Shown here: in pieces, positions 1 through 21,330 of the stretch
Numbering within the stretch: the stretch's first letter is position 1
Layout of the letters: the number at the start of each line of letters is the position of its first letter
NCBI GenBank assembly: GCA_026770585.1
Contig: MU646543.1
Location: forward strand, 274,807-298,904
DNA: 24,098 nucleotides
Reading direction: 5' to 3'
From: Baffinella frigidus
Taxonomy: Eukaryota; Cryptophyceae; Cryptomonadales; Baffinellaceae
Notes under the pieces: model-generated
What the model was told of the DNA's origin: nothing
Databases searched by the model: none
Seen by the model: only the letters and a program-made list of their open reading frames with translations
Position numbers and translations under genes: made by a program

Positions 1-599
1 ATCTATGCAACTGGTTTTGACTCTGTTGGCCGGAAGCAACCACACGGAAGCAACCACACGAGGTATCTATGCAACTGTGCGAGGGTACTCTCACCAGCCC
101 TCTGAGGTGGTAGGCCTAACCACCCCATGTTTAGTCCGTTTGAGGAATCTGATTCCGCAAAGTCAATTATTGGATTATTACCCAGGAAGCACGCCAAAAG
201 TCAGCAACTGGTCACGTTTCTGCACGCTTTCCGTGCAGGCTTTCCCACAAAATCCTAAAACGTGCATTTATTGTGTTATCCATTGTTACTTAAGTTAACA
301 CAGAGGTTCCACTTTTGCTTTGAGACGTTGCACTCTCGACGTTTGTCTCGGTGGGCCGCGCTCTTAACCTCGTGTGGAATGGCAAAGGTTGACCGTGCTA
401 ATAGGGTAACGTCCTGAAAACCGGGTAGTTAGGCCTTCGGTATTGCCTACGGTAGGCCGTAGGGCCCCTAGGACCTAATTTTCATAGGACCCCCCCTATA
501 GGCCCCTACGGCCTACCGTAGGCAATACCGTAGGCCCAACTACCCGGTTTTCAGGACGTTGCCCTATGAATGCTCGCACTAACCCGGGGCGTTGACCAG
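1..599. other. Upstream intron of the mutase-family gene
   Basis: No exon found. Bases 54-376 begin CACACGAGG and end CCTCGTGTGG, the ends of the CACACGAGG foldback family, but without a clear target duplication. Bases about 296-375 are the reverse complement of about 4860-4940 (the stretch containing tttgtctcggtgggc), so material from this element recurs 4.5 kb away. Bases 404-564 are a separate palindrome. The preceding coding exon of the gene must lie to the left. Confidence 0.6.
404..564. mobile_element. Foldback element, GTAGGC family, TA-flanked
   Basis: A near-perfect palindrome: ends GGGTAACGTCCTGAAAACCG and its complement CGGTTTTCAGGACGTTGCCC, arms rich in taggcctac/gtaggccta, flanked by TA on both sides (402-403, 565-566). 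There is no coding capacity, so it is non-autonomous. It ends 35 bases before the first mutase-family exon. A related, decayed copy is at 935-1120. Confidence 0.75.
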
Positions 600-641
600 G
601 TCGTGACTCACGACGAGGCGGTGGAGAGGATTCGCGCCACG
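600..641 (+). CDS. Mutase-family exon 1 of those in window (VVTHDEAVERIRAT)
   Basis: A 42-nt phase-0 exon between acceptor gaccag and donor ACG|gtgctt. It encodes VVTHDEAVERIRAT, the segment that in the family links the catalytic loop to the IARTD strand (family pattern: vv..eEav.rIraA). Too short to identify alone, but it joins in frame and in the correct family order to the exon at 2682. No preceding exon is visible in bases 1-599. Confidence 0.75.
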
Positions 642-3600
642 GTGCTTCCCCCCGTCCCACACGAGGCTATCCATCCGAACAGAATCAAAGGACATTTTGA
701 AATTTGTGGGGAAATGATCACGTTTCCGTACGGATGTCCGTGCGGAAACGTGATCAAATGCTGACTTTTGGCGTGTTTCCTGGGCAATAATCCAATAGTT
801 AACTTATGAATCTGTTCGCATGGATAGCCTCGTGTGGTCCCCTGCGTGCTGTGTGCAAAGCACCTTGTCAACTTTGTGTAAAGCACTGAGCCGTTATCCG
901 TTGGCCGAGAAACGTTCATGGGCTAACGGACTAAACATGGGGTAGTTAGGCCTACGGAATTGCCTACCGTAGGCCGTAGGGCTCCTATGACCAAAAAGTC
1001 CTGGGATTTTGGCCTACAGTAGGAGGTCGTAGGCAATGTCGTAGGCCTAACTACCCCATTTTTGGTCCAGGCCTAACTACCCCATTTTTGGTCGTAGGCC
1101 TAACTACCCCATTTTTGGCCGTGCCTGGAGGCGGACGACTACGGTCCATCTAAGAGCCTTTGGCTAAATGTGTTGTAAAAAAAATACCCTGTCCGAGATA
1201 TTGATTATGATTCGATCAACACACTTCGAAAGTTGAATAGCCAGACACAGACTCCCAAACTAGATTTTCTCGTCGCAGAAACGCATTTTATGCCCGTGAT
1301 GAGGAAAGGTCGGGACGTGATGACAGTCGACAATCCTGCATTGTTGCTGGAGCCATTGTATTCTCGTAGTTTTCCGGACCCGGGCGCGGGACTAGAGACA
1401 CGGTACTACCCCCCTTCCCCTGCTTGCTGTGTGTAAAGCACCTTTTTTTATCTCTGTGCTTCACTTTTTGTAAAGCATAGAGCCGGTATCCGTTTGCCGA
1501 GAAACGTGAATTAGAGACATGGGGCTGCCCACCCCCTTCCAAAGGAGTCCCCCGTACGACTTTTTAACTTTAAAATTAAAATGGGGGGTTGACTGATTCC
1601 GACTGCGCGGTTGACTGATCTCCAAGCGCCACTAAACCCTAAACCCTAAACCCGAAACCGTAAACCGTAAACCCTAAACCCGAAACCCGAAACCCGAAAC
1701 CCGAAACCCGAAACCCTAAACCCTAATTCGTAAACCCTGAACCCTAGACCCTAAACCCTAAACACTAGACTCTAGACCCCAGCCCTAAACCTTCAACCCG
1801 AAACCATAAACCTGAAACCTGAAACCTTTAACCTTAAACCCTGAATCCTTGACCCTAAACCCTAAAACCATAAACCCTAAACCCCAAACCCCAAACCCTA
1901 AACCCTAGATCCTAAACCCTAAACCCTAAACCCTAAACCCTAAACTCTTAACTCTAAACCCTAAACTCTAAACCCTAAGACAGGTCAAGGCTCGCGATGA
2001 GTTGCGCGGAGAGGTGCCCGCCCGCCCGTTGACTAAATCATTTGACTAAATCATTGACTAAATCATTTGACTAAATCGTCGACTAAATCATTTGACTGAA
2101 TCATTTACAAATCAATTAAATCGTTCAGCTGCCTGTGAACTAACGTTTAGCAACGACAGCTGTCCGTTGACTAAACACTTCAGTCAACCGGTCCCGTCCG
2201 GTGTTGTGTCCCTGGAAGGGGGGGGGGGGCGAACCCGAAACCCGAAACCCGAAACCCCAATCCCGAATCCCGAATCCCGAACCCCGAACCCCGAAACCCG
2301 AAACCCCAATCCCGAATCCCGAATCCCGAGCCCCGAACCTCGAAGCCCGAAATCCCGAATCCCGAATCCCGAACCCCGAAACCCAAATCCCGAATTCCGA
2401 ATCCCGAATCCCGAATCCCGAATCCCGAATCCCGAAATCAGGACGGCACGGACTTGTTAGTGATCGCGCGCACAGACGTGCTTCGCGCCACAGGCAAAGA
2501 CCCTTCTTCTTCTTCTTCTTCTTCTTCTTTTTCTGTTTCTTCTTCTTCTTCTTTTTCTTCTTCTTTTTCTTTTTCTTTTTCTTTTTCTTTTTCTGCTTCT
2601 TTTTCTTCTTCTTTTTCTTCTTCCTCTTTTTCTTCTTTTTCTTCCCAGTCTTCTTCTTCTTCTTCTTTATTCTCGATGCAGGTCCTAGATAGGCCCTTCA
2701 GCCTTGACTTGGTGGTGATCGCGCGCACCGATGTGATTCGCGCCACAGGCAAAGCCCTAATCCCAGAGAATTTACTACACACATGGATCATATTAGTAAT
2801 AGTCAAGCATTTGTGGAGTAAACTTCGCTGGCAGAAAGGGCTTTTTGATCTTCATATACGTTGTATACTCGGTGACATATGACTCTGGGTAGGTGACTCT
2901 CTAGAGCATCTTTCTGCTCTCGCGTGTCGCCTCCCAGAGGCGCCCCGCGAGTGTGTGACCACACACTCATGACCACACACTCACGGGGCGCCTCTGGGAG
3001 GCGACACGCGAGAGCAGAAAGATGCTCTAGAGAGTCACCTACCCAGAGTCATATATCACCGAGTATACAACGTATACGAAGATGGAGCTTTACCTTAAGC
3101 TTCGCGCCACAGGCTAAGCACCTCTCCCGACCATCCTCGCTCTGTCTCGTCCGGCCGCTGTACTGACGTGCCCTGCGTCGTGTCCGTGTGATTTCATCCG
3201 GACGAGTATTCATAATGAATACGATTTCGGGGATCTCCGATTCGATTTTGGTGTATCTTGAGGCTCTGAATGAAGTCTAGATAGACGACTGTCTTATTTA
3301 TACCCCTTAAGATACACCAAAATCGTATTCATTATGAATACTCGGCGGGATTAGATTGTTATGTGGGAGGGGTGCAAACGCGTTTCGTAGAGCACTGTGC
3401 AGAGAAGTTGGCCACCGAAAAATGGGGAAATGGGAAAATTGGAGCCATTTTGTCCACTTGTGAGCAATTCATGCTACTAAATTTCTCAAAAGTTGACAAA
3501 ATGGCTCCAATTTCTCGATTTTCCATGATTTCCCGTGGCCAACTTCTCTGCACAGCGCTCTAACCACTGCAACCTGACGTGTCCGGCCGGTGTACGAACG

Positions 3601-6600
3601 TGTCGTGTGGAGGGGGGGGCGAGACCGCACCCTGAACCCTGCACCCTGAACCCTGAACAGGCAACATGGTGGAGTGCAAGAGGCGATGTGAGGCGTTCGT
3701 GCGAGAGGGGGGTAGCCATCGTGTGCGCCCGGGTGAACTGACACGTCCTGCGTCATGTCCGGTTGGTGTACTAACGCATCCTGTGTCGTGTCCGGTCGGT
3801 GTACTGTCACGTCCTGTGTCACGTCCGGCCAGTGTACTGACGCGTCCTATGTCGTGTCCTGCCAGTGTACGAACGTGTCATGTGTCGTGTCCGGTCAGTG
3901 TACTGACGCGTCCCCCTTCGTGTCTGAGCAGGAGATATGGCCGAGTGCCGGCGGCGATGCCAGGCGTTCGTGCAAGAGGGGGCTGACGTGGTGTACGCCG
4001 AGGGGCTGGAGGGGGAGGCGGACATGCGCGCGCTCGCGACGCTCCTCCCTGTGCCGACAATGCTCGCCCAGGTGTAGCCACGTGACCAACCCTCTCGACG
4101 CCACACGGGCCTCTGTGAGGGTGTGGAGGACGCCTTTTCAGGGTCCCTGTGCCGACCATGCTCGCCCAGGTATAACTCAACCCAAGGCGTAAGGGCCTAC
4201 CAAGGAAGAGCCCTAGAACCTAACGTGGGTCAGGGGGTGAGGGGTTAGGGCGTGTGCTGTGTGGTGTAAGGTTCAGGGTGTCGGGCTTCGTGGTGTAGGG
4301 TGCATGGAGTGGCTGGATGGGGGAAGAGGACACCAGAGGCACACGCTGACAAGGTCTATTCTGGTGGCCTTAAAGGCACAAGCTTCTGTTCCTTTCGTGT
4401 GAGAGGTATAGCCGCTAGGGTCTAGAGTTTAGGGTGTGGGGTTTAGGGCTTAGGGTTTATGGTTCAGGGTGTAGGGTGCAGGGTGTTCCCAGTCCCGAGC
4501 ATGCTTGTCCAGGTGAGGATTAGGGTCTAGGGTCTAGGAGTTTGGGTCAAGAGTCTAGGGTTTAGGGTCTAGGGTCTCGAGGTTTTGGGTCTAGGGTCTA
4601 GAGTTTAGGGTGTATTTACGGTGCTGGTTTCTGTGGAGGAGGCTGGGAGGTTGAGGTTCATACACACTCGTTCGCGCTAAAAGTGTTTAGATGGCTTATC
4701 GTGGTACATATTTTTAAAACTCCTGCGGCAAAGAGCTCCAACTCCCAACACTTTTGGCGTGTTTCTCGGGTAGAATCAACTTTACTCCTAGATCGTGTGT
4801 AGTAAAACGAAAATTCGTTCACATTTTGACTTCTGCCCTGGCGTGGTCAGCGGCAGGGCGCTTAACCAGCCGATTCCTCTTGAGAGCGCTGCCCACCGAG
4901 ACAAAAGTCGAGAGCGGAACGTCTCAAAGCAAAAGTGGAACTTCCGTTAACTTAAGGTAACGGTGGAAATCGGCAGGTGGAGCGGCCAGGAAAGGCGCTG
5001 GTTTCTGTGGAGGAGGCTGGGAAGCGCGGCTTCACGCTGCACCTCCGGGGCGTGACGGTATGTGGAGCAGTTTTTTTCGCGAAAAAAATGCAAACTGCAA
5101 CAGTGACAAACGTTGACGGTGCTGGTGCGAGTTCGTCAACTTTGGGGGGTGTTGACTTTTGGAAATGACTGGAAGGGTTGAATTGTGTGGAGGCTGTCGG
5201 GTTTCGGTGGAGGAGGCTGGGAGGCGCGGCTTCACGCTGCACCTCCGGGGCGTGACGGTGTGCGGGGCCATTTTTTTCTCGGATCTGGCGATGCGGAGGC
5301 AAAGTGCAACAGTATTGTCGAAATGGGCTCCGCGCGAAAAAAATCGAGGTCAGGTCAGGCACGGATCCAACATTTTTTGGGGGGGAAATGCCATTTGTGT
5401 CATCTTATGGGTGGGGATGCTATTTTGGGATAAAAAACATGCCTAAGATAGCATACAAGTTCATTTTTGGGGAATCCGACCGAATGCTGACCTGACCTCG
5501 ATTCCGCGCGAAGCCCATTTTTCGACAATAACAAACGTTGACGGTGCTGGTGCCAAAACGTTGACTGGAAGTTTCGAATGGCTGGAAATGGTGTATTGTG
5601 TGGAGGCTGTCGGGTTTGGAGAACTGTCTGGTCTTGCCCGTGTCGGCGCCTTGCGATTCTCTCTGGAAAGATGGATTTTAATCTCCATACACGTATTAAT
5701 TAATTGCTTTTGGGCAACGAAAATTACTACACGATTTGCTTATACAAGTAATAGTAGAGCATTTGTGTAGTAAATTTCGTTGCGCCAAAAGCAATTAATT
5801 AATACTTTTGTGGAGATGAATTTGAGGAGCGTGTGTGAACCGTGCCGAAGCCCTGAACCGAATATGACACCAGAAGCCCCAATTCGCTATTTCCTATTTG
5901 CTATGTCCTGCCCCATAAGGACCGGTCTAAGCTAATCTCCATACAAGTATCAATTAATTGCTTTTGGCAACGAAAATTACTACACGATTTGCTCATAAAA
6001 GTAATAGTAAAGCGTTTGTGTAGTAAATTTTGTTGCGCCAAAAGCAATTAATTAATAATTTTGTGGAGATGAAAGCCCTCACCCCTAACCATGCTTCTTT
6101 CCGAAGAACTGCAGTCTGGAGAAGTGTCTGGTCTTGCCCGTCTTTCTCTTTGGATGCTGGTGCTAGAACGTCGAGGGGTGTGGGGTAAACCCTGAACCCT
6201 CAACCGTATCCCCTACGCCAGGTGCTCTCAGCAACGATATGCGCGCTGCAGAAAACTCTGTCGAAACCCTGAACCCTCAACCCCAAACCCTAGACCCAAA
6301 ACCCTAAACCCTAAACCCTCAGCCAGGTTCTCTCAGCAACGATATGCGCGCTGCAGAAAACGCTGGCCGCCATGCGGAGCGGCGACGACCTCGACGCTAC
6401 AGGTTTTATCTCAGAAAACAAGTTCTAAAACTCGTTTTCTTAAGTCAATTCCCCTACAAATTCGTCAACTTATTCTTTACTCTCCGCATAAGTTGACAAA
6501 TTTGTAGAGGAATTGACTTAAGAAAACGAGTTTTAGAACTCGTTTTCTGGGATAAGGTTAGGGGGGGCACGTTCAGGGTGGCTTGTAGCGAGCTCTAGGG

Positions 6601-9100: not shown

Positions 9101-9156
9101 ACAGCCGGTCGTACAAAACGTGTAGAGTGACAGAGTCGTTATGTCCTACTCAGACA

Positions 9157-9815
9157 CAGCCTTGCATGGGAGGCAGCGCTCGGTCCTGCGGGACCCTAAG
9201 CCGCCGGTCGTACACGACGTGTAGAGTGACAGAGTCTCTATGTCCTGCTCAGACACATTTATCCGGGGAAACCTATTTTTCTTTCATTTGATGGCAACGA
9301 AAATTACTACACAATTCGTTCTTATTAGCAATATAAAAGAATCTGTGTAGTAATTTTGATTGCCATCAAATGAAAGAAAAATAGGTTTCCCCGGATAAAC
9401 ATCCTTGCCTGGGAGCACTGGGCCCTGCGGGACCCTAAACAGCCGGTCGTACACATCCTTTAGGTCCGTTAGGTTCTTCGAGGGATAGCAGCTCCACCGG
9501 CGCGCCTCCCCCTCCATTTCCACCTGCGATCTGGCTGGAGACGCGACTTGATTTCTGATTACTGGGGACCCTCTCGGGTGCTGCTTAAGCCCTGGGGTGC
9601 ATCCGGTAGGTCCTTTAGGTTGTTCGAGCCCCCACCATAGGCGGACACCGGAACTTGTTCTGAAGGAAGACCATGCTTCCTGTCGGATCACATCAAGCCC
9701 CCCTCCCCTGTACAGAGGATCAACGTGTAGAGTGCACGTGACATGTCTCTGGGGCCTGCGCAGACACAGCCTTGCATGGGAGGCAGCACTCGACCCAGCA
9801 GAACCCTGAGCGGAC
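9157..9815 (+). pseudogene. Downstream echoes of the mutase-family terminal exon and 3' flank
   Basis: 9157-9200 reads SLAWEAALGPAGP with stop. 9403-9446 is a deleted version (LAWEHWALRDP). 9768-9813 reads SLAWEAALDPAEP with stop. Between them the 3' flank (ccggtcgtaca…gtgtagagtgacagagtc…cagacaca) is also repeated, giving a unit near 100 bp. Faint relatives of ctgctcagacaca occur at 10438 and 11738. Confidence 0.8.
9259..9398. mobile_element. TTATCC foldback, TSD ACAT, inserted in an exon echo
   Basis: Ends TTATCCGGGGAAACCTATTT / CCCCGGATAA, flanked by ACAT (9255-9258, 9399-9402). Removing element and one ACAT gives cagacacatccttgcctggg, matching the uninterrupted sibling cagacacagccttgcatggg at 9151. 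It shares the central core caacgaaaattactacac with the ATCTCC family although the arms differ. Confidence 0.9.
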
Positions 9816-9826
9816 CAAAACATCTA

Positions 9827-9926
9827 TCCCTTAAGTGACCAGTGGGCTCATACGCCCTACCGTAGGGCCCTAGGACCTGCCTAGGGCTCCCACGGGCGAT
9901 TATTCGCCCGTTGGTCACTTAAGGGA
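9827..9926. mobile_element. TCCCTTAAG foldback copy 2
   Basis: Ends TCCCTTAAGTGACCAG / CTTAAGGGA, flanked by TA (9825-9826, 9927-9928). The central hairpin (gggcgattattcgccc) differs from the other two copies. Confidence 0.82.
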
Positions 9927-10015
9927 TAACGGATCGAAACCAACTTGGCCACCATGCATTCCCTTCCGTGCGAGGGCCGTGTAAGATCAGGACCTAAGCG
10001 CTAAGTTCTTCACTA

Positions 10016-10132
10016 CAGGGGTACCTCGCTCATAAGAAACCGCCTCCCCCTAGAACCCTACGGTAGGCCTGTGCCTAGGGCCCTATGGTGGCCCTAGGGG
10101 GGGGGCGCTTTCTTATTAGCGAGGTACCCCTG
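10016..10132. mobile_element. CAGGGG foldback copy, TA-flanked
   Basis: Ends CAGGGGTACCTCGCTCATAA / inverted, with TA at 10014-10015 and 10133-10134. About 117 bp like its relatives. Confidence 0.85.
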
Positions 10133-10290
10133 TACGGATCGAAACCAACTTGGTCACCGTGTATTCCCTTCCGTGTGAAGGATCTCTGTGAGATCAGGAC
10201 CTGAGCTCCAAAAAAACAGGACCTAAGCGCCAAAAAATCCTGATCTCTGTGAGATCAGGACCTACGCGCCAAAAAACTCAGCCCGCGCTA

Positions 10291-10407
10291 CAGGGGTACC
10301 TCGCTCATAAGAAACCGCCCACCCCTTAGGACCACCGTAGGGCCCTAGGCATAGGCCTACTGTAGGGTCCTAGGGGGGGTCGGTTTCTTACGAGCGAGGT
10401 ACCTCTG
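10291..10407. mobile_element. CAGGGG foldback copy, TA-flanked
   Basis: Same ends as the copy at 10016, 117 bp, TA on both sides. The flanking sequence gatctctgtgagatcaggac is itself repeated three times at 10180-10265. Confidence 0.85.
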
Positions 10408-10494
10408 TATGCAGGCATCAGTGGAACGCTCGAGGTCCTGCTCAGACACTCGAGGTCCTCGGTGGGGGTGCGTATCCCTCGGTGGGGGTGCGTA

Positions 10495-10595
10495 TCCCTT
10501 AAGTGGCGAGCAGGCTCATGCGCCCTACCGTAGGGCCCTAGGACCTGCTTAACACCTCTTGGCGGTCAAATTTGACCGCCTCGCCACTTAAGGGA
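10495..10595. mobile_element. TCCCTTAAG foldback copy 3
   Basis: TCCCTTAAGTGGCGAG / CTCGCCACTTAAGGGA with a perfect inner palindrome gcggtcaaatttgaccgc. Left flank TA, right flank TG. The 20 bp before it (ctcggtgggggtgcgtatcc) is directly duplicated. Confidence 0.82.
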
Positions 10596-10969
10596 TGTGT
10601 ACGGGGTCGTTGACGTAGGACCCAGCGGTCTGGCGTACATCTGTAGCGTAGGGCTGCGAGGAGTTCTAGGCATTCTGCGTGAGTATTGATTACGAGTCCA
10701 GCATGACCACGTACTAAGGCCCCCTGCGGAGGGTTTTTGGCCAGTAGGATCTGGAGTTCTCTCATCGCTGCCGAGCGAGGACGGGACACAATTTTAAGGG
10801 GGTTTACAGAACTTTCAACTGAATCCTTAATTAAATGGACTTTTAAAATGAAAAGCCAGGTCCGGACCTTGCTTTTAAAAACGCGCTTAGCCACACAGTG
10901 GACTGTGAAGGGATTCCGAATAACCCTCAAGCTTTTTAGTACCGTGAGGACTCATTGGAGCCCGCCATA

Positions 10970-11025
10970 CAGGGGCACCTCGCTCATAAGAAAGCGCACC
11001 CCCCTACATGTAGGGTAGTCATATG
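10970..11025. mobile_element. Truncated CAGGGG foldback (left half only)
   Basis: CAGGGGCACCTCGCTCATAA and the start of the interior are present; the right end is missing. A second half element lies at 8132-8190. Confidence 0.65.
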
Positions 11026-11093
11026 CTTCTAGGACTAGCCCTAATGTAGAACCCTAAGGCCGTGCGTGTCCTCGATTTCAAGTAACCCCTGTA

Positions 11094-11211
11094 CAGGGGT
11101 ACCTCGCTCACAAGAAACGTCCACACCCCTAGGACCACCGTAGGGCCCTAGGCATGGTCCTACTGTAGGGTCCTGGGGGGGGGGGGGGTTCTTATGAGCG
11201 AGGTACCCCTG
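11094..11211. mobile_element. CAGGGG foldback copy, TA-flanked
   Basis: 118 bp, both ends intact, TA at 11092-11093 and 11212-11213. Confidence 0.85.
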
Positions 11212-11405
11212 TATGCCTCCTTCCACCCAGCCCTCTGGCTCGGCGCGGTCCTGCTCTCACTACTTAGAAGGCCTAAGTGAATGTACTTTGGAGGCCTAAG
11301 TGAATCTACGCCGACGTCCTCATAACCTTGCGTCCTTAGATGCCCTTAGAGCCTAGATACCCACAGCAATACATCTGGCGTTCCTGAGCACTCTTCAGGT
11401 GTGTA

Positions 11406-11618
11406 CAGGGATACCTCGCTCATAAGAAACCGCCCCCCCCTAGGACCCTACAGTAGCCCTATGCCTAGGGCCCTACGGTGGTCCTAGGGGGGTGGGCGTT
11501 TCTTATGAGCGAGGTACCCCTGTGCAGGGGTACCTCGCTCATAAGAAACCGCCTATGGGGGGGGGCGGTTTCTTGGTCCTGTGGGGAGGGGCGGTTTCTT
11601 ACGAGCAAGGTACCCCTG
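11406..11618. mobile_element. Two CAGGGG foldbacks in tandem
   Basis: Element one spans 11406-11522 and element two 11525-11618, separated only by TG where TA would be expected. The second is shorter and contains a duplicated ggcggtttctt, so it looks rearranged. The outer flanks are TA. Confidence 0.8.
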
Positions 11619-11930
11619 TAGCCCTACTGTAGACCCCTAAGGCAGCGCGCGTCCTGGCTCAGCGCGGTCGTGCTGGAACGCAACACATGTTTCTTTCATG
11701 TAGGTCAGGAGAGTGCGCACAACCCCTCGAGTCGCCCCTGCTCAGACACAGCCTCTGTGGGTGTGAACACTGTTGTATTTCCCCACGTGGGAGATCCCCT
11801 CTTAGGCGGATCAACCCCCCGTAATAGCCCAAATGTCTACCCCTAGTACATCAGGCTAAATCCCCCCTACTCCGGGCCTCTATTGGTGCATACATGGCGG
11901 CCGCGCTGGACAAAGTCTCACGCTCCGTTA

Positions 11931-12048
11931 CAGGGATACCTCGCCCATAAGAAACTGCCTCGTCCTAGGACCCTACAGTAGGCCTATGCCTAGGGCCCTA
12001 TGGTGGTCCTAGGGGGGGGGGCGGTTTCGTATGAGCGAGGTACCCCTG
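11931..12048. mobile_element. CAGGGG foldback inserted in a copy of the Trx-UBX stop codon
   Basis: Ends CAGGGATACCTCGCCCATAA / inverted, TA on both sides (11929-11930, 12049-12050). Joining the flanks gives gtTAggagagagactgcgtg, which matches the last exon of Trx-UBX (gtTAggagagagactgggtg at 12334-12353). The target TA is thus part of the echoed stop codon. Confidence 0.85.
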
Positions 12049-12049
12049 T

Positions 12050-12085
12050 AGGAGAGAGACTGCGTGAGAGACGCGTTCTCACGCT
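12050..12085 (-). pseudogene. Echo of the Trx-UBX terminal exon
   Basis: The sequence aggagagagactgcgtgaga continuing gacgcgttct repeats the 3' half of exon 7 (NASLTQSLS-stop) about 285 bases downstream of the gene's stop. It is broken from its left flank by the foldback at 11931. Confidence 0.75.
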
Positions 12086-12177
12086 CCAAAGTTGACGGGT
12101 GTGTACCGCAGACCCAGCACGTCAACTTAAGAATAGTCCGCGAGCCAACCCGAGACTGAGGCAGAACTAGAAGGTCT

Positions 12178-12198
12178 GTCTGTCTGTCTCTGACTCTG

Positions 12199-12243
<45 letters not shown>

Positions 12244-12332
12244 CTCGCTCGCTCTCTCGCTCGCTCTATCTCGCTCTCTCTCGCTCTCTCTCGCTCTCGC
12301 TCTCTCGCTCTCGCTCTCTCGCTCGCTCGCTC
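12178..12332. repeat. CT / GCTC simple repeat in the 3' flank of Trx-UBX
   Basis: Long pyrimidine tract on the plus strand, (CT)n with GCTC interruptions. On the gene's strand it is (GA)n/(GAGC)n starting directly after the stop codon. Confidence 0.9.
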
Positions 12333-12334
12333 AG

Positions 12335-12394
12335 TTAGGAGAGAGACTGGGTGAGAGACGCGTTCTGCAGCTTGGCGTCCTCGATCGTCTGCGC
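12335..12394 (-). CDS. Trx-UBX terminal exon (UBX end and stop)
   Basis: A 60-nt exon after acceptor tttcacag, encoding [19 protein letters not shown] and TAA. It aligns with the UBX C-terminus (..qTL.eAnLlNAvivQ.L). The sequence just downstream on the minus strand is a long GA/GAGC tract that would fall in the 3' untranslated region. Confidence 0.88.
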   Translation of the reverse strand, partial: AQTIEDAKLQNASLTQSLS

Positions 12395-15300
12395 CTGTGA
12401 AACACGGTAACGGGGTTAGGGGTTTACGGGTTAGGGGTTAAGGTCTAGGGTTTACTTCAAAGAAGGAGGACGATTGGTCTTTTAAGTCTGCGGAACAGGC
12501 CACATGGATTTAGGGTTTGAAATGTGGGTTCAGGGTTCAGAGTTCAGGGGGTATGGGTTGGGGTTTAGGGGTTTCTCCGAAGATAGGAGTCGATCGTTTG
12601 ATTCTGCGGAACAGGCCACAGGGGTTTAGGCTTTGAAATTTGGGTTTCGGGTTCAGGGTTCAGGGGTTAGGGGTTAGTTTTCAGGGATTTCTCCTAAGAA
12701 AGGGTCTCGATCGGTGGAGGATTTACTCACGCACCGCCCTAACCCCTGAACCCTGAACCCGAAACCCAAATTTCAAAGCCTAAACCCCTGTGGCCTGTTC
12801 CGCAGAATCAAACGATCGACTCCTATCTTCAGAGAAACCCCTAAACCCTGGTCCTCGAGTTTGGCACGCGGGTAGGGTTCCGGGTTTAGTGTTTAGTGTT
12901 TAGGGATTAGGGTGTGGGGTTTACATGTAGGGTTGAGGGATTATGAATAAGGGATTAGGGTTTACCTGTAGGGTTTAGGGGTTAGGGATTAAGGATTAGG
13001 GATTAGCGTTTACATGTAGGGTTTAGGGATTAGGGATTAGAGATGAGGGTTGTGGGAATATGTAGGGTTTAGGGATTAGGGATGTGGGGTTTAGGGATGA
13101 GGGATTAGGGTTCATGGCGCGTGCCTGGTCCTCGAGTTTGGAGCGCGGGTAGGAGTTGGCGAGCACAAACGCCACCCCGGGCGTGGCGCTGGCCGCCAGC
13201 GCGTACAGCGATGCCACCTTGATGGACGAGGGGGGTGTCAAAGACAAAAACGGCAGCGTAACATTGCATAAAAAGTGGGATAAACGCCTGGCATAGCATA
13301 AATAAAAGCCGAACATAGCGTAAAAGGTGGAACTGGTTCAGTGGTCTGCCGAGATGGTATTGTAGATTTCGGGTCCGCGCGGGGTTTTTTGAGATCAGGT
13401 CGGGGGATCGGTTAACGAAAAAACGTAAGAATGATTCGTTGTGTGTCACCATATGGGTGGGGGTCGCGATCTTGTCATCAAATCCATGCGTAAGATATCA
13501 TAAAACTTTAGATGGACGTAAAAATCTCCGCGATTTTCCCATTTTTAGATCCCCCGACCCGAAGTGAAATCCGCGCGGACCCGAAATCTACAATAAGAGT
13601 TGGGAAGCACCAACGCCACGCCGGGCGCTACAAACCGTGATTGACCACACCCATCTCTCCGTTGACATTTCATGCGCCTGGGGGGGCGGGTCTTTACTGC
13701 GTGGGGGGGGCATTTATAAATGACATCTAAATAACCCCATATTCAAGCGGATGCGTGAGATGGAGTACAGCGACGCCACCTTGGTGTGTATGCACCCCCC
13801 CGCCAACCCTCACGTTTCGACCAAATCGTCGATTTTAGCTTTTAGATTTACCCTTGATTTACCCTTGCAGAGACCCCGGATCCGGGGTGTCTGCAAGGGC
13901 AAATCTCAAGTCTGAAATCGATGATTTGGTCTAACCGTGAGGGTTGGTGGCCACGGAGGCTGTCTGGCTCTGCCTCAGTCGGGTAAGCTGACTATTCTTA
14001 AGGTGACATGCTGGGTGTGTGGTGCAAATACATCGACATTGGAGCGGGAAACGGCCTGGTCTCACCAAATTGGTCAGACTAAATAGACTGAGACAGAGCC
14101 GGCGCCGTGTGTAGCAGGTTTGACCCAGTAGTTTAATCTCCATAGAAGTATTAATTAATTGCTTTTGGGCAACGAAAATTACTACACGGTTTGCTCATAA
14201 AAGTAATAGTAAAGCATTTGTGTAGTAAATTTCGTTGCACCAAAAGCAATTAATTAATACTTTTGTGGAGATGAAGTTGGCACTTCACAAGGCCCATAAT
14301 CGGTATAAAAAGCTCATAACATGTACATCAGGCTCATAACAGGTTTAGGGTTTAGGGTTTAGGGTTGAGGGTTTAGAGTTTAGGATTTAGGGTTTAGGGG
14401 GCAGGGTTTAGGCCCCAGGGTTTAGGGGTTAGGCTTAGGGTTTATGGTTTAGGGTTTAGGGTTTAGGTTTTAGGGTTCAGGGTTTAGGGTTTAAGCTGCA
14501 GGCTTCAGGATTTAGGGTTAAGATTTAGGGTTTAGGGGTAAGGGTCTAGGACGCGGGTGGGACCTTGTCAGAGAGGTTGAACTTGGCCTGGACTTTCTGC
14601 CCGTCGTGCAGCCGGATCTGCATACAGCACTTTCAGGGCAGAAACTCTAGTACACACTCATAGGCTAACGGCCTGGAATTGGGGTAGTTAGGCATACGGC
14701 ATTGCCTAGGACCTCCTACCGTAGGCCGAGGGACACGGGCAACTAAAATTCGGGGAGATAAAAATGCCGGATCTGCTCCCCGCGTGGTGGTGTGCATGCT
14801 CAGAGGGAAAAGCGGTTTCGATAAATTGTCAAACACGACCGCGGCCAGCAAGAGGGCGGGGTCGTACGAGACGCGAGGGCCCCTAGCAGTAAGTCCCCCT
14901 AGCAAAGGGCCCCTTGCTAGGGGCCCAAGGCAGGCGCTGCCTGTCTTGCAGCCGGATCTGCTCGTGGTGAGGGTTGAGGGTTGAGGGTTTGGGGTTTGGG
15001 GTTTAGGGTTGAGGGTTTAGGGTTTAGGGTTTAGGGTGTAGGGTGTAGGGTTTAGGGTTTAGGGTTTAGGGTTTAGAGTTTAAGGTGTAAAGTTTAGGGT
15101 TTAGGGTTTAGGGTTTAGGTGTTCGGGTTTAAGGTCTGGGTTTAGGGATTTGGGATAGGGTTTAGAGTTTACTGTTAACTGTTTAGTGTTACACATTGTG
15201 CGCTGCCCGCCGTGCAGCCGGATCTGCTCGCGGTGGTGTGCATGCTCACCACCAGCAACCCGAAACAGCTTACTACGGGTCTGGGGGCTTCGGATATTCA

Positions 15301-18300
15301 ATCCGTACCGGAAATCCTTTAAATGGAACCTTGCGAAATAGAACCTAATAGATCGGTACACGATGTCAGCGCCCGTCGAACACCCAGTAGGCTTCGCAGA
15401 TCGGTCGATTTATGTCCGAGCTACTAATTAAGAATTTCTCGGTACAAAGATATCTTAGTAACCCCACATTTCGACGAAATGTGGGGGTCAACTTAATAAA
15501 ACTCGCCTTTCCCCCCCGTTTTCGGTCGAAATCCCCTGAGCAGCCCGCTGTGTGGCACCGCCAAGGAATGAGGCATCCGCCCTTCGATGACGCTTCAATG
15601 TTTTGCATGATGCTGGAACGTGGACGCCTACAGTCTGGACCTGCGCAGGTTGTGCTTGTTGCAGATAGATTTGGTAAGCGTGTCAACTATCATACTACGT
15701 GTCTCAGCTTCGGGCGTCCAGGTTAGGAATTTCTTCAATTCAAATCCCCCACCACTCGTATCGTCCAACCAGGGCGAAAGTGCTTAGCACAAAAGGTCGA
15801 AAATCGTTGATGTGGTCCTCTCGTGAGGGTTGCTGGCTGGACCTGCGCAGGTTGTGCGAGGGCTGCGTGCGCTCTCGGTGAACCCTAAACCCTAACCCCT
15901 GGCGGGCTGCACCTCCGGGGCGGCGGTGCAGGGTTAAGGTGTAGGGTTACGGAGTGAGGGGTGAGGGATGAGGGTTCAGGATCGAAAAACTGAGGAGCAG
16001 CCCACCTGGATGGTCGTAGTCGGCAGTGCCTCATCCACCACGGGCGCCCACGTCGGCGCGCCCGCGTTTAGGATGTAACCCTCAACCCAACCCTACACCC
16101 CAACCCTACACCCTACACCCTAAACCTTGACGATGTATGTTTAGGGTGCAGGGGTGAGTGATGAGGGGTGAGGGGTGAGGGGTGAGGAATAAGGGACGAG
16201 GGTTGGAGGGGTGAGGGGTGAGGGGTGCGGTTCGAGGGTCAAACAGTGAGGAGCAGCCCACCTGGATCGTGGTGGTAGGTAGCGTCTCATCCATCACAGG
16301 ATTCAGGGTTGAGGGTTGAGGGTTGAAGGGATAAGGGATGAGGGGTGAGGGGTGACGGATGAGGAGGGTCAAAAAACTGAGGACCACCCCACCTGTATGG
16401 TCGTAGTCGGCTGTGCCTCATCCACTACGGGCACAAACGTCGGCGTCCCAGACCGTCACCCGTCACCCGCCAATCCTGAACCCTCAGCCCTCACCCGTCA
16501 CTCGTCGCCCCTCAACCCTCAGCTCTAAGGTGAAGGGGTGAGGGGTGAGGGATAAAGGACGAGGGTTGGAGGGATGAGGGGCGAGGGGTGCGGTTCGCTA
16601 GTCCGAAAAACTGAGGAGCAGCCCACCTGGATCGTCGTAGTCGGCAGCGCCTCATCCACCACGGGCACAAACGTCGGCGCGCCCGCCGCCGCCGCGGGAG
16701 GGGGCGCGGCGGCGCCTGCGCCGCTGAGCGTCTGCCCGGCGCCCTGAATAAAACGATTGAAGAAATTTATTGCGCCGCGGGAGGGGGCGAGCCGCCGCCT
16801 GCCCGGCGCCCTGGTGCACGATTTCTGTTAGATTTAGCCCGCATTGCGTGATGTTTCTCCAAACCCTAAACCCTGACAGAAATAGAGAAACGCGAACAAG
16901 AACACCAGGAACAAATCAGCGTCAGCCCTCGCTCCCACAGCGGGGGCTGGCGTAGGGTTTAGGGTTTAATTTTTCAAGGTTTAGGGTTTAGGGGTTAGAG
17001 TTTAGGGTTTAGGGTTAAGGGTTTAGGGGGGGTCCAGCTGTGCCTGAGTTTCATTCTGGCTCGTCCTTCAAAGTGTTTAGGAGCAGAAATCCAGGACAAA
17101 AGGGGGGATAGAAAGCCGTTAGGACGAGCCCGAATAAACTTCAGGCAGAGATGGGAGATGCTTCCGCCACCTCCCCCGCTGAGCGTCTGCCCGGCGCCCT
17201 GATAAAAGGAGAAATTTATTTGACGCCGATAAAACAGCGGAATGTGGGGTGTTGCAGAGCGGGGTCCAGCCGGGCGCGCGCAAGCCACTAGGGGCGGGTG
17301 GGGTCTAGCTCTGACTCAGTCGGGTTGGACGACTACTATCAAGTTGACATGCAGGGTGTACGGTACAAACCCGTCAACTTTTGAGCGGGAAGGAGCCCGC
17401 GCTCGCCAAATTGCTTCGCCCAAATAGACTGGGACAGAGCTAGGAAAGGACCTGGAACGCGTCCTAACACCCCAATCCTGGGTGTTACAGAGCAGAATCC
17501 AGCCGAACGCGAAATTTACTGGACACCGATAAAACCGCGGAATGTGGGGTATTGCAGATTGGGATCCAGCCGGGCGCGCGCAAGCTACTAGGGGCGGGGG
17601 CGGTCTAGCTCTGCCTCAGTCGGGTTGAGCCCTGGCTCGGCAAAGTGCTTCGCCCAAATAGACTGAGACAGAGCTTGGGCGAATAAATTTGCCGATCCAG
17701 GGCTCAACCCGACTGAGGCAGAGCTAGGGAGTAGCCTGGAACTTATCTCAGAAAACGAGTTCTAAAACTCGTTTTCTTAAGTCAATTCCCCTACAAATTT
17801 GTCAAGTTATGCGGAGAGTAAAGAATAAGTTGACGAATTCGTAGCGGGATTGACTTAAGAAAACGAGTTTTAGAACTCGTTTTCTGAGATAAGAACGCGT
17901 CCCAGGCCACCTCCCCCGTCGAGAGGTGCTTCGCGATGGCCGCGCGCCGCGGGAAATTATCGCCAGGTGACGCGTTCCAGGCTACTTCGTAGCTCTGCCT
18001 CAGTCTATTTCACTCGGAGTCAGAACATTTCGCCTAAGTCAACTCCCCCTGAAAGCCAGCGCCTTAAGTCAAATGCCGTCCATAGTGGCCAGGTCCATCT
18101 AAACGAAAACAGGGGAAAGTTGACTTAGGTGAGCTGGTTGACTTAGCTGAAATCTTGTGGCTCGGAGTGTATTTGGGCGAAGCACTTTGCCGAGCGCGGG
18201 ATCAACCCGACTGAGGCAGAGCTATTATCACGCGAAATCATCGGACACCGGTCAAACCGCGAAATCTAGGGTGTCACAGGGCTGTACGGAATCCGGTGAA

Positions 18301-20320
18301 GTTCGTCAAGGGACCTAGAACGCGTCCCACTTGTCCACACCCCACACCCCACACCCCACACCACACAACACACAACACACAACACACAACACACACCCCA
18401 CATAACACACCCCACACCCCACACCCCACACCCCACACCCCGCGTGCTTCTCAATGGCCCGCTCGGCTCCTCATTCAAAGCATCCAGACGGAATTTTTGA
18501 CGCTTTTGTACCAGAGTATTCGCCTAACTGCACCTGGAAAGCTTCGCCCAAATATATTGAAACAGAGCTAGGAAGGGACCTGGAACGCGCCCCACTTCTC
18601 GCCGGCGTGTTTCTCAATGGCCGCGCGCAGCCCAAATTTATTGGACACCAAAATTTATCTGATACCAAAATTGATTGGATACCGATAAACCCGCGGAGTC
18701 CAGGGTGTTACAGGGCTGTACAGAATCCAGCCGAGCGGGACCGCGCGGCTAGCCCTGGTATTTAATTGGGGGCTCCAGCATTAAATTGCTTCGCCCAGAT
18801 AGACGGGAGGCAGAGCTAGGAAGTTAATAGTTTCCGACGCCTTCGCGAAGCAATAATGGCTCCAAGCCCCATACAAATTTTGTATGGGACAAGACCATGG
18901 ACACGACCGTGAAGTCGTTTAAATGTCCATGAAGGGTATTTTAGGGTCGTGTCCAATGTTTGGTACAAAATTTGTACCAGGGCTTGGAGCCATTATTGCT
19001 TCGCGAAGGCGTTGTGAACTATGAAAGTAACCTGGAACGCGTCCCACTTCTCGCCGGCGTGCTTCTCGATGGCCGCGCGACTTTCCTTGAAATGAGTTCA
19101 GACGGAATTGTTGAAGCTTTTGTACTGCGGTATTCGCCTAACTGCACCTGGAAAGCGTCCCACTTCTCGCCGGCGTGCTTCTCGATGGCCGCGCGACTTT
19201 CCTTGCAATGAGTTAAGACGGAATTGTTGAAGCTTTTGTACTGCAGTATTCGCCTAAATGCACCTGGGACGCGTCCCACTTCTCGCCGGCGTGCTTCCTA
19301 AATGCACCTGGAAAGATTCCCCCAAATAGACGGAGGCAGCGCTAGGAAGTCACCTGGAACGCGTCCCACTTCTCCCCCGCGTGTTTCTCGATGGCCTCCG
19401 GCCTAACTATGCAGAACGAGGCGGACGCTATCCGGAGGTTAATCGGGACACACCAACCTCGTGACCACCCCCCTCTTGCGTCAATGGGCAGCGAGGATGA
19501 GGGAACCTGGAACGCGTCCCACTTCTCGCCGGCGTGCTTCTCGATGGCCGCGCGCAGCCCCGCGGGGTCCGCGCCCCGCACCTCGTCCACCTTCTCGCCG
19601 TTCTTGTAGAACTGGAACGTCGGCATGGCCTTCACGCCGCATGCTGCCGCAGTCTCCTGGTTTGCGTCTACGTCCACCTGCCGAGCGCTTAGGGTTCAGG
19701 CGAAACCCGGGGTTTAGGTTAGGGTAGGTCCTCAGGGGTGCATCGACGTTGCCAAGGACTGTTATCCCCCCATTGGCGTCACCGTCCACCTGCAAGGCGG
19801 CTCAGGGTGGTCACTGGCTAGGGTGTAGTATTTAGGGTGTAGGGTGTAGGGTCAGGCGCTGACACCCCGTCCCCACCTTGCAGAGCGTCGCGTGCGGGAA
19901 CTCCTTGGCGAGGTTGGCGAACTCGGGCGCGATTTTCTTGCAAGGGCCGCACCACGTCGCCGTGAAGTCGACAACGACAAGCTTCTTCCCCGCGTCGCGA
20001 AGGCAGGCGTCGAACTCGCCCTTCGTCCCGAGCGACACCACCTCGCCTGCGGGGTGCGCGGGGTTGAGGGTCCGCAAGCGGCTGTGACCTATGAAAACCT
20101 CGAGAGAGCGTGCGCCTTGCACAGAGGCGAGCAAAGCGGCAGGTCTGTTGGGCTCTAATCCAGCGGCTGAATAAGCTATGCAGCCCGCCTTGCACACAGC
20201 CGAACAAAGCAGAAGGTCTGTTGAGCTCTACCCAGGACCATGCGGACACCTGGCAGACACCTCACCCCAATGGGTCTAACCCAGGACCATGCGGGGGTTC
20301 TGCACACCTTTTCCGGCCAT
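12335..20320 (-). CDS. Thioredoxin-SHP-UBX fusion protein, complete, 225 aa, seven exons
   Basis: Joined on the minus strand: 20320-20308, 20046-19877, 19677-19507, 16743-16627, 14617-14564, 13217-13125, 12394-12335, total 678 nt. ATG is in a good context (GCCATGG) and the stop is TAA. Residues 1-115 are a thioredoxin fold: [20 protein letters not shown] with active site WCGPC at 36-40, and cis-proline in [10 protein letters not shown] at P80. Residues 117-126, [10 protein letters not shown], match the SHP box (FxGxGxxL) that binds the Cdc48/p97 N domain. An Ala/Pro-rich linker follows, and residues about 152-225 are a UBX domain: [39 protein letters not shown]. The R…FPR p97-contact signature appears as R159…YPR198-200. 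Inferred role: disulfide reductase or redox sensor tethered to Cdc48/p97. UAS-UBX proteins of animals have a thioredoxin-like fold but usually lack CxxC. No signal peptide or membrane segment is seen. All six junctions keep frame. Confidence 0.9.
12562..12847. repeat. Imperfect palindrome of intron sequence
   Basis: ggtttctccgaagataggag with the following cgatcg…gcggaacaggccacagggg is repeated inverted at 12745-12847. A third, direct copy of the unit (tctgcggaacaggccaca) is at 12486. Confidence 0.75.
12851..12876 (-). pseudogene. Echo of Trx-UBX exon 6 end inside telomere-like repeat
   Basis: On the minus strand: ccctacccgcgtgccaaact then cgaggaccag, encoding YPRAKLEDQ. It runs straight into CCCTAA-type repeat on both sides. 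The exon's 3' end is kept but the donor is ggtttag. Confidence 0.8.
13125..13217 (-). CDS. Trx-UBX exon 6 (UBX core with YPR)
   Basis: A 93-nt phase-0 exon encoding [20 protein letters not shown] then [11 protein letters not shown], the UBX helix and the strand with the cis-Pro FPR-type loop, here YPR. The acceptor is catcaag and the donor is CAG|gcacgc, a GC donor. A copy at 23130-23157 has GT at the same position, so the donor dinucleotide has shifted among copies. Confidence 0.88.
13360..13593. mobile_element. TTGT-family foldback, TA-flanked
   Basis: Ends TTGTAGATTTCGGGTCCGCG / CGCGGACCCGAAATCTACAA, flanked by TA (13358-13359, 13594-13595). Arms include gatcgggg-type sequence and a divergent centre. 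Relative of 5315-5528. Confidence 0.85.
13598..13787 (-). pseudogene. Split echo of Trx-UBX exon 6
   Basis: 13763-13787 reads KVASLYSI with the same aag acceptor, and 13598-13632 reads GVALVLPNS. About 135 bp of unrelated sequence lies between the two halves. Confidence 0.72.
13803..13947. repeat. Foldback with CCAACCCTCACG ends
   Basis: ccaaccctcacgtttcgacc at the left matches inverted ggtctaaccgtgagggttgg at the right, with nested palindrome cttgcagagaccccggatcc-type at the centre. No clear target duplication. Confidence 0.75.
14134..14274. mobile_element. ATCTCC foldback element copy 3, TSD AGTT
   Basis: Same family as 5679 and 5933 (TAATCTCCATAG / GTGGAGATGA, identical core), flanked by AGTT (14130-14133, 14275-14278). 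High identity between copies in two different genes suggests recent activity. Confidence 0.9.
14341..14548. repeat. Interstitial TTTAGGG array next to exon 5
   Basis: About 200 bp of TTTAGGG with variants, in the G-rich orientation on the plus strand. Ends close to the donor of Trx-UBX exon 5. Confidence 0.9.
14564..14617 (-). CDS. Trx-UBX exon 5 (UBX strand 1-2)
   Basis: A 54-nt phase-0 exon encoding [18 protein letters not shown], the first UBX hairpin (family: iqIRlpDG.rl..kFn.sh.v). The acceptor is tatgcag and the donor AAG|gtccca. It is the only exon in the window whose acceptor is not followed by G. Three copies of its 5' edge plus acceptor lie at 14765-15245. Confidence 0.9.
14765..15245 (-). 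pseudogene. Three echoes of Trx-UBX exon 5 acceptor region
   Basis: Near 14765-14800, 14934-14965 and 15191-15245 the phrase cagccggatctgctcg (plus strand) repeats the start of exon 5 (IRLHxGQ) with its intron acceptor gagcag and upstream gagcatgcacaccac. The longest echo reads QIRLHGGQ. None continues to FNLSDK. Confidence 0.8.
15935..16600. repeat. GGGTGAGG / GGGATGAGG minisatellite blocks
   Basis: G-rich 7-9 bp units (ggggtgaggg, ggttgaggg) fill the spaces between exon 4 echoes, some in CCCTCACC orientation (16455-16515). They resemble degenerate telomere repeat with T to G changes. Confidence 0.8.
16006..16450 (-). pseudogene. Three echoes of Trx-UBX exon 4 end with donor
   Basis: 16006-16065, 16263-16300 and 16393-16450 each read …[12 protein letters not shown] or a close variant ([11 protein letters not shown]), followed by gtgggctgctcctcag, the same intron start as the real exon at 16627. 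The third has a base change in the last codons. They are spaced by GGGTGAGG-type minisatellite. Confidence 0.88.
16627..16743 (-). CDS. Trx-UBX exon 4 (SHP box and linker)
   Basis: A 117-nt phase-0 exon between acceptor ttattcag and donor CAG|gtgggc. It encodes [20 protein letters not shown] then [27 protein letters not shown] is the body of an SHP box, followed by an Ala/Pro linker and the start of the UBX domain, as in p47-type proteins (…PTT.IQIRL). At least three truncated copies lie at 16006-16450. Confidence 0.9.
17168..17200 (-). pseudogene. Echo of Trx-UBX exon 4 start with acceptor
   Basis: Minus strand: ccttttatcag then GGCGCCGGGCAGACGCTCAG, reading [11 protein letters not shown], as the real exon starts, then unrelated sequence. 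A shorter echo at 16797-16812 reads GAGQA. Confidence 0.82.
17307..17440. mobile_element. GCTCTG foldback copy 1, TA-flanked
   Basis: Ends GCTCTGACTCAGTCGGGTTG / CAAATAGACTGGGACAGAGC, TA on both sides. The interior has aagttgacatgcagggtgta…cgtcaacttttgag, another short inverted repeat. Confidence 0.8.
17607..17724. mobile_element. GCTCTG foldback copy 2, TA-flanked
   Basis: Ends GCTCTGCCTCAGTCGGGTTG and the same inverted, giving longer arms than copy 1. The sequence just left of it (caagctactaggggcggg) duplicates that left of copy 1, so the pair partly arose by tandem duplication. Confidence 0.8.
17743..17892. mobile_element. TTATCTCAG foldback copy 2, TSD GAAC, inserted in an exon echo
   Basis: Ends TTATCTCAGAAAACGAGTTC / CTGAGATAA, flanked by GAAC (17739-17742, 17893-17896). 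Joining the flanks gives cctggaacgcgtccc, exactly the echoed thioredoxin exon end. The central loop is in the opposite orientation to the copy at 6406. Confidence 0.92.
17992..18222. mobile_element. GCTCTG foldback copy 3, TA-flanked and longer
   Basis: Ends GCTCTGCCTCAGTCTATTT / cccgactgaggcagagc, TA at 17990-17991 and 18223-18224. It contains an inner imperfect palindrome ttcgcctaagtcaactcccc…gttgacttagc, possibly a nested insertion. Confidence 0.72.
18333..18443. repeat. CCCCACA / CACAACA simple repeat
   Basis: Tandem ccccaca and cacaaca 7-mers, same unit length as the telomere-like arrays but without the TTAGGG core. Confidence 0.85.
18838..19011. repeat. Palindromic element with CGCCTTCGCGAAGC ends
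   Basis: Arms cgccttcgcgaagcaataat and ggctccaagcccc match inverted at 18979-19011; the centre is ggacacgacc…gggtcgtgtcc. Possible TA flanks lie slightly outside (18828, 19020) but the end match there is imperfect. Confidence 0.78.
19033..19297. repeat. Tandem repeat of about 115-121 bp carrying the thioredoxin echo
   Basis: Two full units and a partial third: exon echo, then gagttcagacggaattgttg, aagcttttgtactgcggtat and tcgcctaactgca. A relative of the non-exon part is at 18475-18535. It shows that at least some echoes spread by tandem duplication. Confidence 0.85.
19507..19677 (-). CDS. Trx-UBX exon 3 (thioredoxin C-terminal half)
   Basis: A 171-nt phase-0 exon between acceptor ctcggcag and donor CAG|gttccc. 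It encodes [40 protein letters not shown] and [21 protein letters not shown]…GVKAMPTF is the thioredoxin strand with the cis-proline. The last residues, DAFQ, extend past the normal thioredoxin end and supply the F of the SHP box. Its 3' end is the most heavily echoed sequence in the window. Confidence 0.95.
19678..19876. other. Intron 2 of Trx-UBX
   Basis: 199 bp with short telomere-like runs at both ends. At 19774-19793 (plus strand gtcaccgtccacctgcaagg) is an echo of the exon 3 start with its acceptor, reading VDGDAN on the minus strand. Confidence 0.8.
19877..20046 (-). CDS. Trx-UBX exon 2 (thioredoxin active site WCGPC)
   Basis: A 170-nt exon between acceptor accccgcag and donor AAG|gtgggg. 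It encodes [40 protein letters not shown] and [16 protein letters not shown]. The WCGPC redox motif and the surrounding VDFTAxWCGPCKxIAP are textbook cytosolic thioredoxin. Confidence 0.95.
20047..20307. other. Intron 1 of Trx-UBX with internal duplication
   Basis: 261 bp. A unit of about 70 bp (gccttgcacacagccgaaca…ggtctgttgagctctaccca) occurs twice (20112-20165, 20185-20245), and ccaggaccatgcgg a third time at 20281. Confidence 0.75.
20308..20320 (-). CDS. Trx-UBX exon 1 (MAGK + 1 base)
   Basis: A 13-nt coding exon, ATGGCCGGAAAAG, followed by donor gtgtgc. It was chosen because exon 2 needs one incoming base, and the resulting start [17 protein letters not shown] resembles thioredoxin N-termini. 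The start context GCCATGG is near optimal. Coding exons this short are easily missed, and other upstream ATGs are possible, so the start is good but not certain. Confidence 0.7.
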
Positions 20321-21320: not shown

Positions 21321-21330
21321 CAATTCACTG

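Follow-up and report, generated by a model that had tools for sequence, protein, structure and literature searches.

Results

Two intron-rich genes in the window

The window, by which we mean the whole stretch of 24,098 nucleotides analysed here, contains two intron-rich genes, one for a thioredoxin-UBX protein on the minus strand (gene A) and one for a PEP-mutase-like protein on the plus strand (gene B). Exons were placed on the basis of translation, splice signals and the Pfam matches of the joined protein, which gave 12 exons, six for each gene. Gene A extends from 20046 to 12335 and comprises exons A2 to A7, its first exon not having been found. In its product a thioredoxin domain (PF00085, E 8.5e-30) is followed by a UBX domain (PF00789, E 1.9e-13). 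Gene B occupies about 599 to 9100 and its product matches PF13714 (E 2.8e-12). The introns after A6 (13125) and B2 (2493) appear to begin with GC instead of GT, and in gene A five out of six exons start with G after the acceptor AG.

The best protein match was thioredoxin-like protein P0001 of Baffinella frigidus (96% identity over 54% of the query). When aligned with 19337-19677, this NCBI gene model passes the A3 donor unspliced and stops just past the first of the partial exon copies described below (here called echoes); by eye, its C-terminal part is the window's read-through from A3 into that echo. An 86% identical protein, P0002, has the A3-A4 junction joined, which supports the chosen exon ends, and then continues into the window's intron after A4. 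Judged from sequence, the window's genome is that of B. frigidus, presumably strain CCMP2293, or of a nearly identical alga. The CCMP2293 draft genome comprises 534.5 Mbp with 53.9% GC, 41.1% repeats and a BUSCO coverage of 72.3%, and is 6.1 times the size of that of Guillardia theta (PMC9756366).

Most exons have partial copies nearby

With all exons masked, the remainder of the window was queried with every exon at a cut-off of 28 bits. Thirty same-strand and two opposite-strand matches were found, as compared with averages of 0.065 and 0.085, respectively, in 200 dinucleotide shuffles. At least one echo was present for 10 of the 12 exons, while none was found for A2 and B1 in the exon-masked window at ≥28 bits. 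Using nhmmer, same-strand copies were recovered at E <0.1 for nine of the ten echoed exons and for A5 only at E 0.29; the reversed window yielded nothing at E <0.1 for any of the 12 exons. The echoes in the window are real. A preliminary description of this DNA had claimed nearby partial copies, mostly on the same strand, for at least ten of 13 exons, and this stands except that we placed 12 exons. The edges it had named are indeed exon edges, five-prime at 14617, 6327 and 9006 and three-prime at 4071, 16627 and 19507.

All but one of the same-strand matches are local (29), the exception being a 17-bp match of B4 to 15906 at a distance of 10.8 kb. Both opposite-strand matches lie about 10 kb from their exon. 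An inverted partial copy of the A6 region, 78-80% identical and 10 kb away, was seen at 22963-23158 and 23359-23405 (corresponding to 12847-13050 and 13123-13173). Exon A3 is the most echoed. Its eight matches were taken, by eye, to represent seven echoes; a simple-repeat array separates two of the matches and a foldback shortens another (Table 1). Divergence among copies ranges from 0 to 22%.

Table 1. Exons of genes A and B, each followed by its echoes. Search queries for B2, B5 and B6 were 1-2 bases shorter than the true exon ends.
Feature	Position	Strand	Remark
Exon A2, thioredoxin domain first part	19877..20046	-	no echo found
Exon A3, thioredoxin domain end	19507..19677	-	donor CAG/GT at 19507
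A3 three-prime-edge echo	19354..19396	-	P0001 model reads through into this echo
A3 three-prime-edge echo	19264..19297	-	
A3 three-prime-edge echo	19148..19195	-	within 116-bp tandem unit
A3 three-prime-edge echo	19032..19079	-	48 bp identical to exon
A3 three-prime-edge echo	18580..18633	-	
A3 three-prime-edge echo	18315..18459	-	matches 18315-18335 and 18439-18459, joined by eye across GGGGTGT-type array
A3 echo	17738..17950	-	match 17926-17950; by eye reaches exon edge, split by foldback 17742-17893
Exon A4, linker to UBX	16627..16743	-	
A4 three-prime-edge echo	16393..16445	-	93 bp intron aligned, 70/96 columns identical
A4 three-prime-edge echo	16262..16300	-	98 bp intron aligned, 86/98
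A4 three-prime-edge echo	16006..16065	-	92 bp intron aligned, 73/95
A4 five-prime-edge echo	17170..17198	-	acceptor AG present
A4 internal echo	16773..16802	-	upstream of A4
Exon A5, UBX start	14564..14617	-	
A5 five-prime-edge echo	14937..14957	-	21 bp
A5 five-prime-edge echo	15203..15223	-	21 bp
Exon A6, UBX	13125..13217	-	GC donor
A6 three-prime-edge echo	12848..12876	-	splice GC lost
A6 internal echo	13594..13627	-	upstream of A6
Exon A7, last exon	12335..12394	-	with stop codon
A7 echo at stop-codon edge	12049..12079	-	
Exon B1	599..637	+	boundaries uncertain; no echo found
Exon B2	2442..2493	+	GC donor; searched as 2442-2491
B2 three-prime-edge echo	2706..2746	+	
Exon B3	3932..4071	+	
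B3 echo near five-prime edge	3666..3729	+	from exon base 6, upstream; tallied as internal
B3 three-prime-edge echo	4144..4169	+	
Exon B4	4977..5057	+	
B4 internal echo	4620..4648	+	upstream
B4 three-prime-edge echo	5200..5257	+	
Exon B5	6327..6402	+	foldback after its donor; searched as 6327-6401
B5 five-prime-edge echo	6222..6260	+	
Exon B6, last exon	9006..9100	+	with stop codon; searched as 9006-9098
B6 five-prime-edge echo	8255..8293	+	from exon base 3
B6 five-prime-edge echo	8569..8596	+	acceptor AG present
B6 stop-codon-edge copy	9162..9257	+	offset 99 bp
B6 stop-codon-edge copy	9405..9463	+	past foldback 9258-9399
B6 stop-codon-edge copy	9772..9807	+	

Edge echoes keep to one side of their exon

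Among the 29 local echoes, 23 reach an exon edge within two bases and the other six are internal. That echoes mostly span splice junctions, as had been proposed, is correct with the reservation that 4 of the 23 lie at a stop codon. In the window all 17 three-prime-edge echoes are located downstream and all six five-prime-edge echoes upstream of their exon (p 1.2e-7, a value that assumes independent matches, which tandem copies are not). Stop-codon edges account for 4 of the three-prime-edge echoes (three from B6 and one from A7), so the side rule is not confined to splice sites. Both exon edges are present in none of the 23 edge echoes, nor in any of the 29 local echoes, whereas random units of 60-450 bp would carry both in 18-53% of cases. 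Some echoes are arranged head to tail, with offsets of 99 bp (9063/9162), 116 bp (19030/19146) and also 67 bp; most copies are now separated by other DNA. Strand, locality, fixed side and the head-to-tail cases support the small tandem duplications around exon edges suggested in the preliminary description, but the restriction to exon edges cannot be upheld, as intron-only stretches are duplicated too.

For A4, the similarity of the echoes runs on beyond the exon edge through 92-98 bp of intron. The 35-bp intron flanks of 25 splice-edge echoes from the window and from a CLU-like gene elsewhere in the genome (see below) were compared with the flank of the respective exon; the set was drawn from 30 edge echoes, of which the four stop-codon ones and the one that begins at exon base 3 were left out. 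Significant resemblance was seen for 13 of the 25 at p<0.05 (expectation about 1) and for 6 at p<0.01, indicating that those 13 echoes were copied from DNA rather than from spliced RNA. The other 12 flanks fail p<0.05, some despite an exon part that is 97-98% identical. A reading by tandem duplication alone is at its weakest here, since simple co-duplication predicts better flank matches. The A3 echoes are alike across the junction (18523-18622 and 19297-19396 share 85% over 100 bp), and a change at A3's own flank may account for the mismatch of that exon.

Copies of spliced mRNA were sought with nine probes across exon-exon junctions. Of the six matches obtained, four were the exons themselves and two were edge echoes plus a short extra match, which we take to be due to chance. 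With no clear junction-spanning copy among the nine probes, retrocopying of spliced RNA was rejected.

Mismatches between echoes and exons

Over 38 echoes, the raw mismatches numbered 24, 27 and 79 at codon positions 1, 2 and 3, and the mismatch events private to single echoes 7, 12 and 38. Among the 117 distinct mismatches, 64 were synonymous (0.547; range 0.413-0.673 when exon families were bootstrapped). Models predict 0.26-0.34 for two unconstrained copies and 0.41-0.51 for an exon free only at synonymous sites paired with a neutral echo. The mismatches are those expected of a constrained exon paired with an unconstrained echo, not of two unconstrained copies. The echoes therefore look like neutral relics of real exons, in which mild constraint could remain. 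Selection on the echoes had been considered because of the third-position skew and was dropped, as the distinct events and the exon's own synonymous changes fit an unconstrained echo.

Exon edges compared with intron-only DNA

Nineteen 50-base tiles at exon edges were compared with 119 clean intron tiles outside the echo list. A same-strand copy was found for 13 of the 19 exon-edge tiles at each of 28, 32, 36 and 40 bits, and for 45, 40, 31 and 29 of the intron tiles at these thresholds. The excess at exon edges is thus 1.8 to 2.8-fold depending on threshold (Fisher p 0.005 at 32 bits). Opposite-strand copies were present for 20 to 12 of the 119 intron tiles and for no exon tile, and part of the intron-tile matches is leftover transposon pieces. 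An excess of about twofold is expected from decay: with only one side of the pair free to change, exon-echo pairs would lose their similarity about half as fast as pairs of intron copies. Slower decay may fall short of the whole excess. Junction targeting is not needed, because intron-only tiles are duplicated as well, and general local duplication comes close to being a sufficient account of the tile counts.

A process or selection that favours splice junctions, whether through copying coupled to transcription or splicing or because echoes are kept as decoys or alternative splice sites, would explain the higher counts for exon-edge tiles and also why similarity so often ends at the junction, as it does for the 12 dissimilar flanks. 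It could further explain that GT, GC or AG is kept in 17 of 18 counted splice-edge echoes of the window (a tally that allows a two-base shift for B2 by eye and does not count a guessed extra A4 spot) and that the first A3 echo lies 153 bp past the real donor, a multiple of three, with an open frame between. Against this, exon pairs decay more slowly, which by itself yields about twofold excess; echoes are also found at the stop-codon edges of A7 and B6, the mismatch pattern requires no constraint on the echoes, and the nine junction probes detected no clear spliced copy. We consider a preference for junctions rather unlikely.

Foldbacks and other repeats

The window contains 21 foldback regions, some of them within or next to echoes. 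Seven of 62 echo ends lie within 20 bp of a foldback (2.1 expected) and four within 5 bp of foldback ends (0.76 expected, p 0.0045), in a list of echo ends that was partly made by eye and partly split at foldbacks before counting. Across five blocks, the window among them and the 3.5-kb piece introduced below left out, foldback density and direct-repeat density follow a similar rank order (Spearman 0.9, p 0.04). By eye, arms of one element type follow several A3 echoes. All this would be expected if foldback (MITE-like) elements caused the duplications, with hairpin breaks, stalled forks or gap repair after excision copying the flanking exon edge. On the other hand, insertion into an existing echo yields equal closeness, foldbacks and echoes may both just build up in neutral DNA, and there is no foldback between copies such as 6186/6291 and 3719/3786. 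The foldback-driven repair put forward in the preliminary description as a possible cause may contribute, but later insertion explains the echo-end closeness and the density ranking equally well, and we view it as doubtful.

A family of elements of about 120 bp is present at 7199-7319, 7556-7675, 10014-10134, 10289-10409, 11092-11213, 11404-11523 and 11929-12050. Its members match in both orientations and have inverted-repeat arms CAGGGGTACCTCGCTCATAAGAAA flanked by TA (by eye). Foldbacks with arms starting TTATC have 4-bp flanking repeats by eye (17742-17893, 9258-9399, 6406-6555). Degenerate telomere-like CCCTAAA/TTTAGGG runs are common in introns (1633-1980, 14341-14550, 14970-15170 and elsewhere), and a short-period repeat array with a period of about 21 bp by eye lies outside both genes at 21318-21957. 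Two scans of viral collections with foldback motifs found nothing.

Echoes in other parts of the genome

Thirty further stretches of the same genome were taken, 19 of which consisted entirely of N, and five readable pieces from two contigs (22.5, 21.1, 3.5, 9.5 and 24.0 kb) were used, with foldbacks and low-complexity sequence masked. Near repeats (<3.5 kb) in same and opposite orientation numbered 40:1, 16:2, 0:0, 10:3 and 69:3 in these pieces (135:9 in total) and 60:8 in the window. Beyond 3.5 kb there was no same-strand excess, neither in the other pieces (6:16) nor in the window (6:7).

Of 49 coding-like segments (composition score >=8), some of which are copies of one another, 23 had a local copy on the same strand and two on the opposite strand; shuffles gave none. 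Echoes are therefore not peculiar to the window, a restriction that would have refuted the preliminary description, although their spread is uneven: 14 of 18 segments were copied in block BL1, 6 of 12 in BL4 and 1 of 10 in BL2, and each of the two BL3 pieces had a single copied segment (among 6 and 3, respectively), which makes only 3 of 19 outside BL1 and BL4. Pfam searches with 20 coding-like segments from these pieces gave two matches, CLU (PF13236, E 1.8e-5) and one leucine-rich repeat, so the coding calls there rest nearly all on composition. Longer coding-like stretches (L028:1037-1303, L024:3765-3953, L027) are mostly without echoes, and BL2 and BL3a together have 2 copied segments of 16. 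There is a hint that intron-rich genes are hit most.

In BL1, six exons of a CLU-like gene were placed from splice signals and from what we take to be resemblance to CLU proteins; Pfam support is confined to C3, the start of C5 is arbitrary, and a nearby segment at 17254 was omitted. Copies were found for five of the six exons, a count biased by the fact that the repeats had been seen before the exons were placed. Less exposed to exon choice is the side rule, to which all seven edge echoes of this gene conform. One of the nine CLU copies (BL1 20428-20526) spans the whole stretch taken as C5, the start of which has no proven acceptor.

Discussion

We interpret the echoes as what decay has left of small local direct duplications that occur often in intron-rich DNA of this genome, and assign this reading a probability of roughly 0.7, held at that value because decay may not explain all of the exon-edge excess of up to 2.8-fold. 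Duplications of tens to hundreds of bases would arise often, in direct orientation and mostly about 50-500 bp apart. One that reached from inside an exon into the intron would keep an intact exon and put an extra edge with its splice site into the intron. As long as splicing still joined the intact pair, such edge-crossing duplications would be tolerated, while a copy lying wholly inside an exon, or including all of one, would alter the protein and be removed; both filters are postulated. The fixed side of the edge echoes (23 of 23 in the window, 7 of 7 in the CLU-like gene) would follow because the retained exon is the copy with both edges. Each event would lengthen the intron, and the echoes would then mutate freely, take in foldbacks and simple-repeat expansions and possibly duplicate again. 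We infer that the outer splice sites are used in Baffinella mRNA and that the duplications come about by slippage, unequal exchange or break repair.

Each echo could instead mark the birth of an intron from an AGGT-bearing exon piece that was duplicated in tandem, a route of intron gain that has been described for exon-intron borders (PMC4974935). Such births predict the end of the upstream exon just before the new acceptor; on the acceptor side the window has five-prime-edge echoes of the downstream exon (6 of 6), and not one three-prime-edge echo lies on the wrong side, which makes this account very improbable. An assembly artefact from collapsed or mis-joined long reads is hardly credible, given copies that differ by 0-22% with an excess of synonymous differences and into which foldbacks and simple repeats have been inserted, and echoes that recur at separate places on two other contigs.

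If the local duplications proposed here occur genome-wide, a single genome could offer many natural experiments in splice-site choice. The end of A3 and its donor stand beside seven echoes, and only the first donor is expected to give normal protein. Each echo would be a clock against its own exon and thereby provide a way to date intron growth. Echoes may also mislead gene prediction, as in the NCBI thioredoxin model, which reads through into the first A3 echo. A bolder proposal, which we put forward tentatively and think less probable than its opposite, is that introns grow mainly by repeated self-duplication of splice junctions, that this helped the genome to reach about six times the size of that of G. 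theta, and that the spliceosome must pick the outermost pair among competing, real-looking sites.

Several known systems resemble the echoes in part. In tandem exon duplication, as with mutually exclusive exons, exon sequence is duplicated beside the original. The copy is complete there, with acceptor and donor, unlike the Baffinella echoes, of which 0 of 29 have both edges. Internal gene duplication, associated with intron creation, comprises within-gene duplications that alter or add exon-intron borders; the Baffinella copies differ in being fragments left in introns. The term is used in PMC9860276. Introners (Gozashti et al., 2022, PMC9860276) bear a likeness to the Baffinella foldbacks, which have terminal inverted repeats and, by eye, 4-bp or TA flanking repeats. 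They are, however, a dispersed family that forms whole introns with splice sites at the ends, whereas the echoes are gene-specific and, within the window, local to their own exon except for the two inverted matches 10 kb away and the one 17-bp match. The words 'crypto', 'Baffinella' and 'Guillardia' do not occur in the main text of that article (PMC9860276), and the titles and beginnings of abstracts listed in literature searches yielded no description of exon-edge echoes in cryptophytes, which is no proof of absence. The closest likeness is to the potato RdRp gene, in which one tandem genomic duplication across an intron-exon border made a new spliced intron (Ma, Lan and Niu, 2016, PMC4974935). 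There, too, a direct tandem duplication takes in an intron end, the beginning of the following exon and the splice signals. The potato case is a single event in one gene that resulted in a new intron, whereas in Baffinella the partial copies number in the dozens, have decayed, are spread over several genes and were not each seen to have made an intron. It is in number, decay and spread that the echoes differ from the potato duplication.
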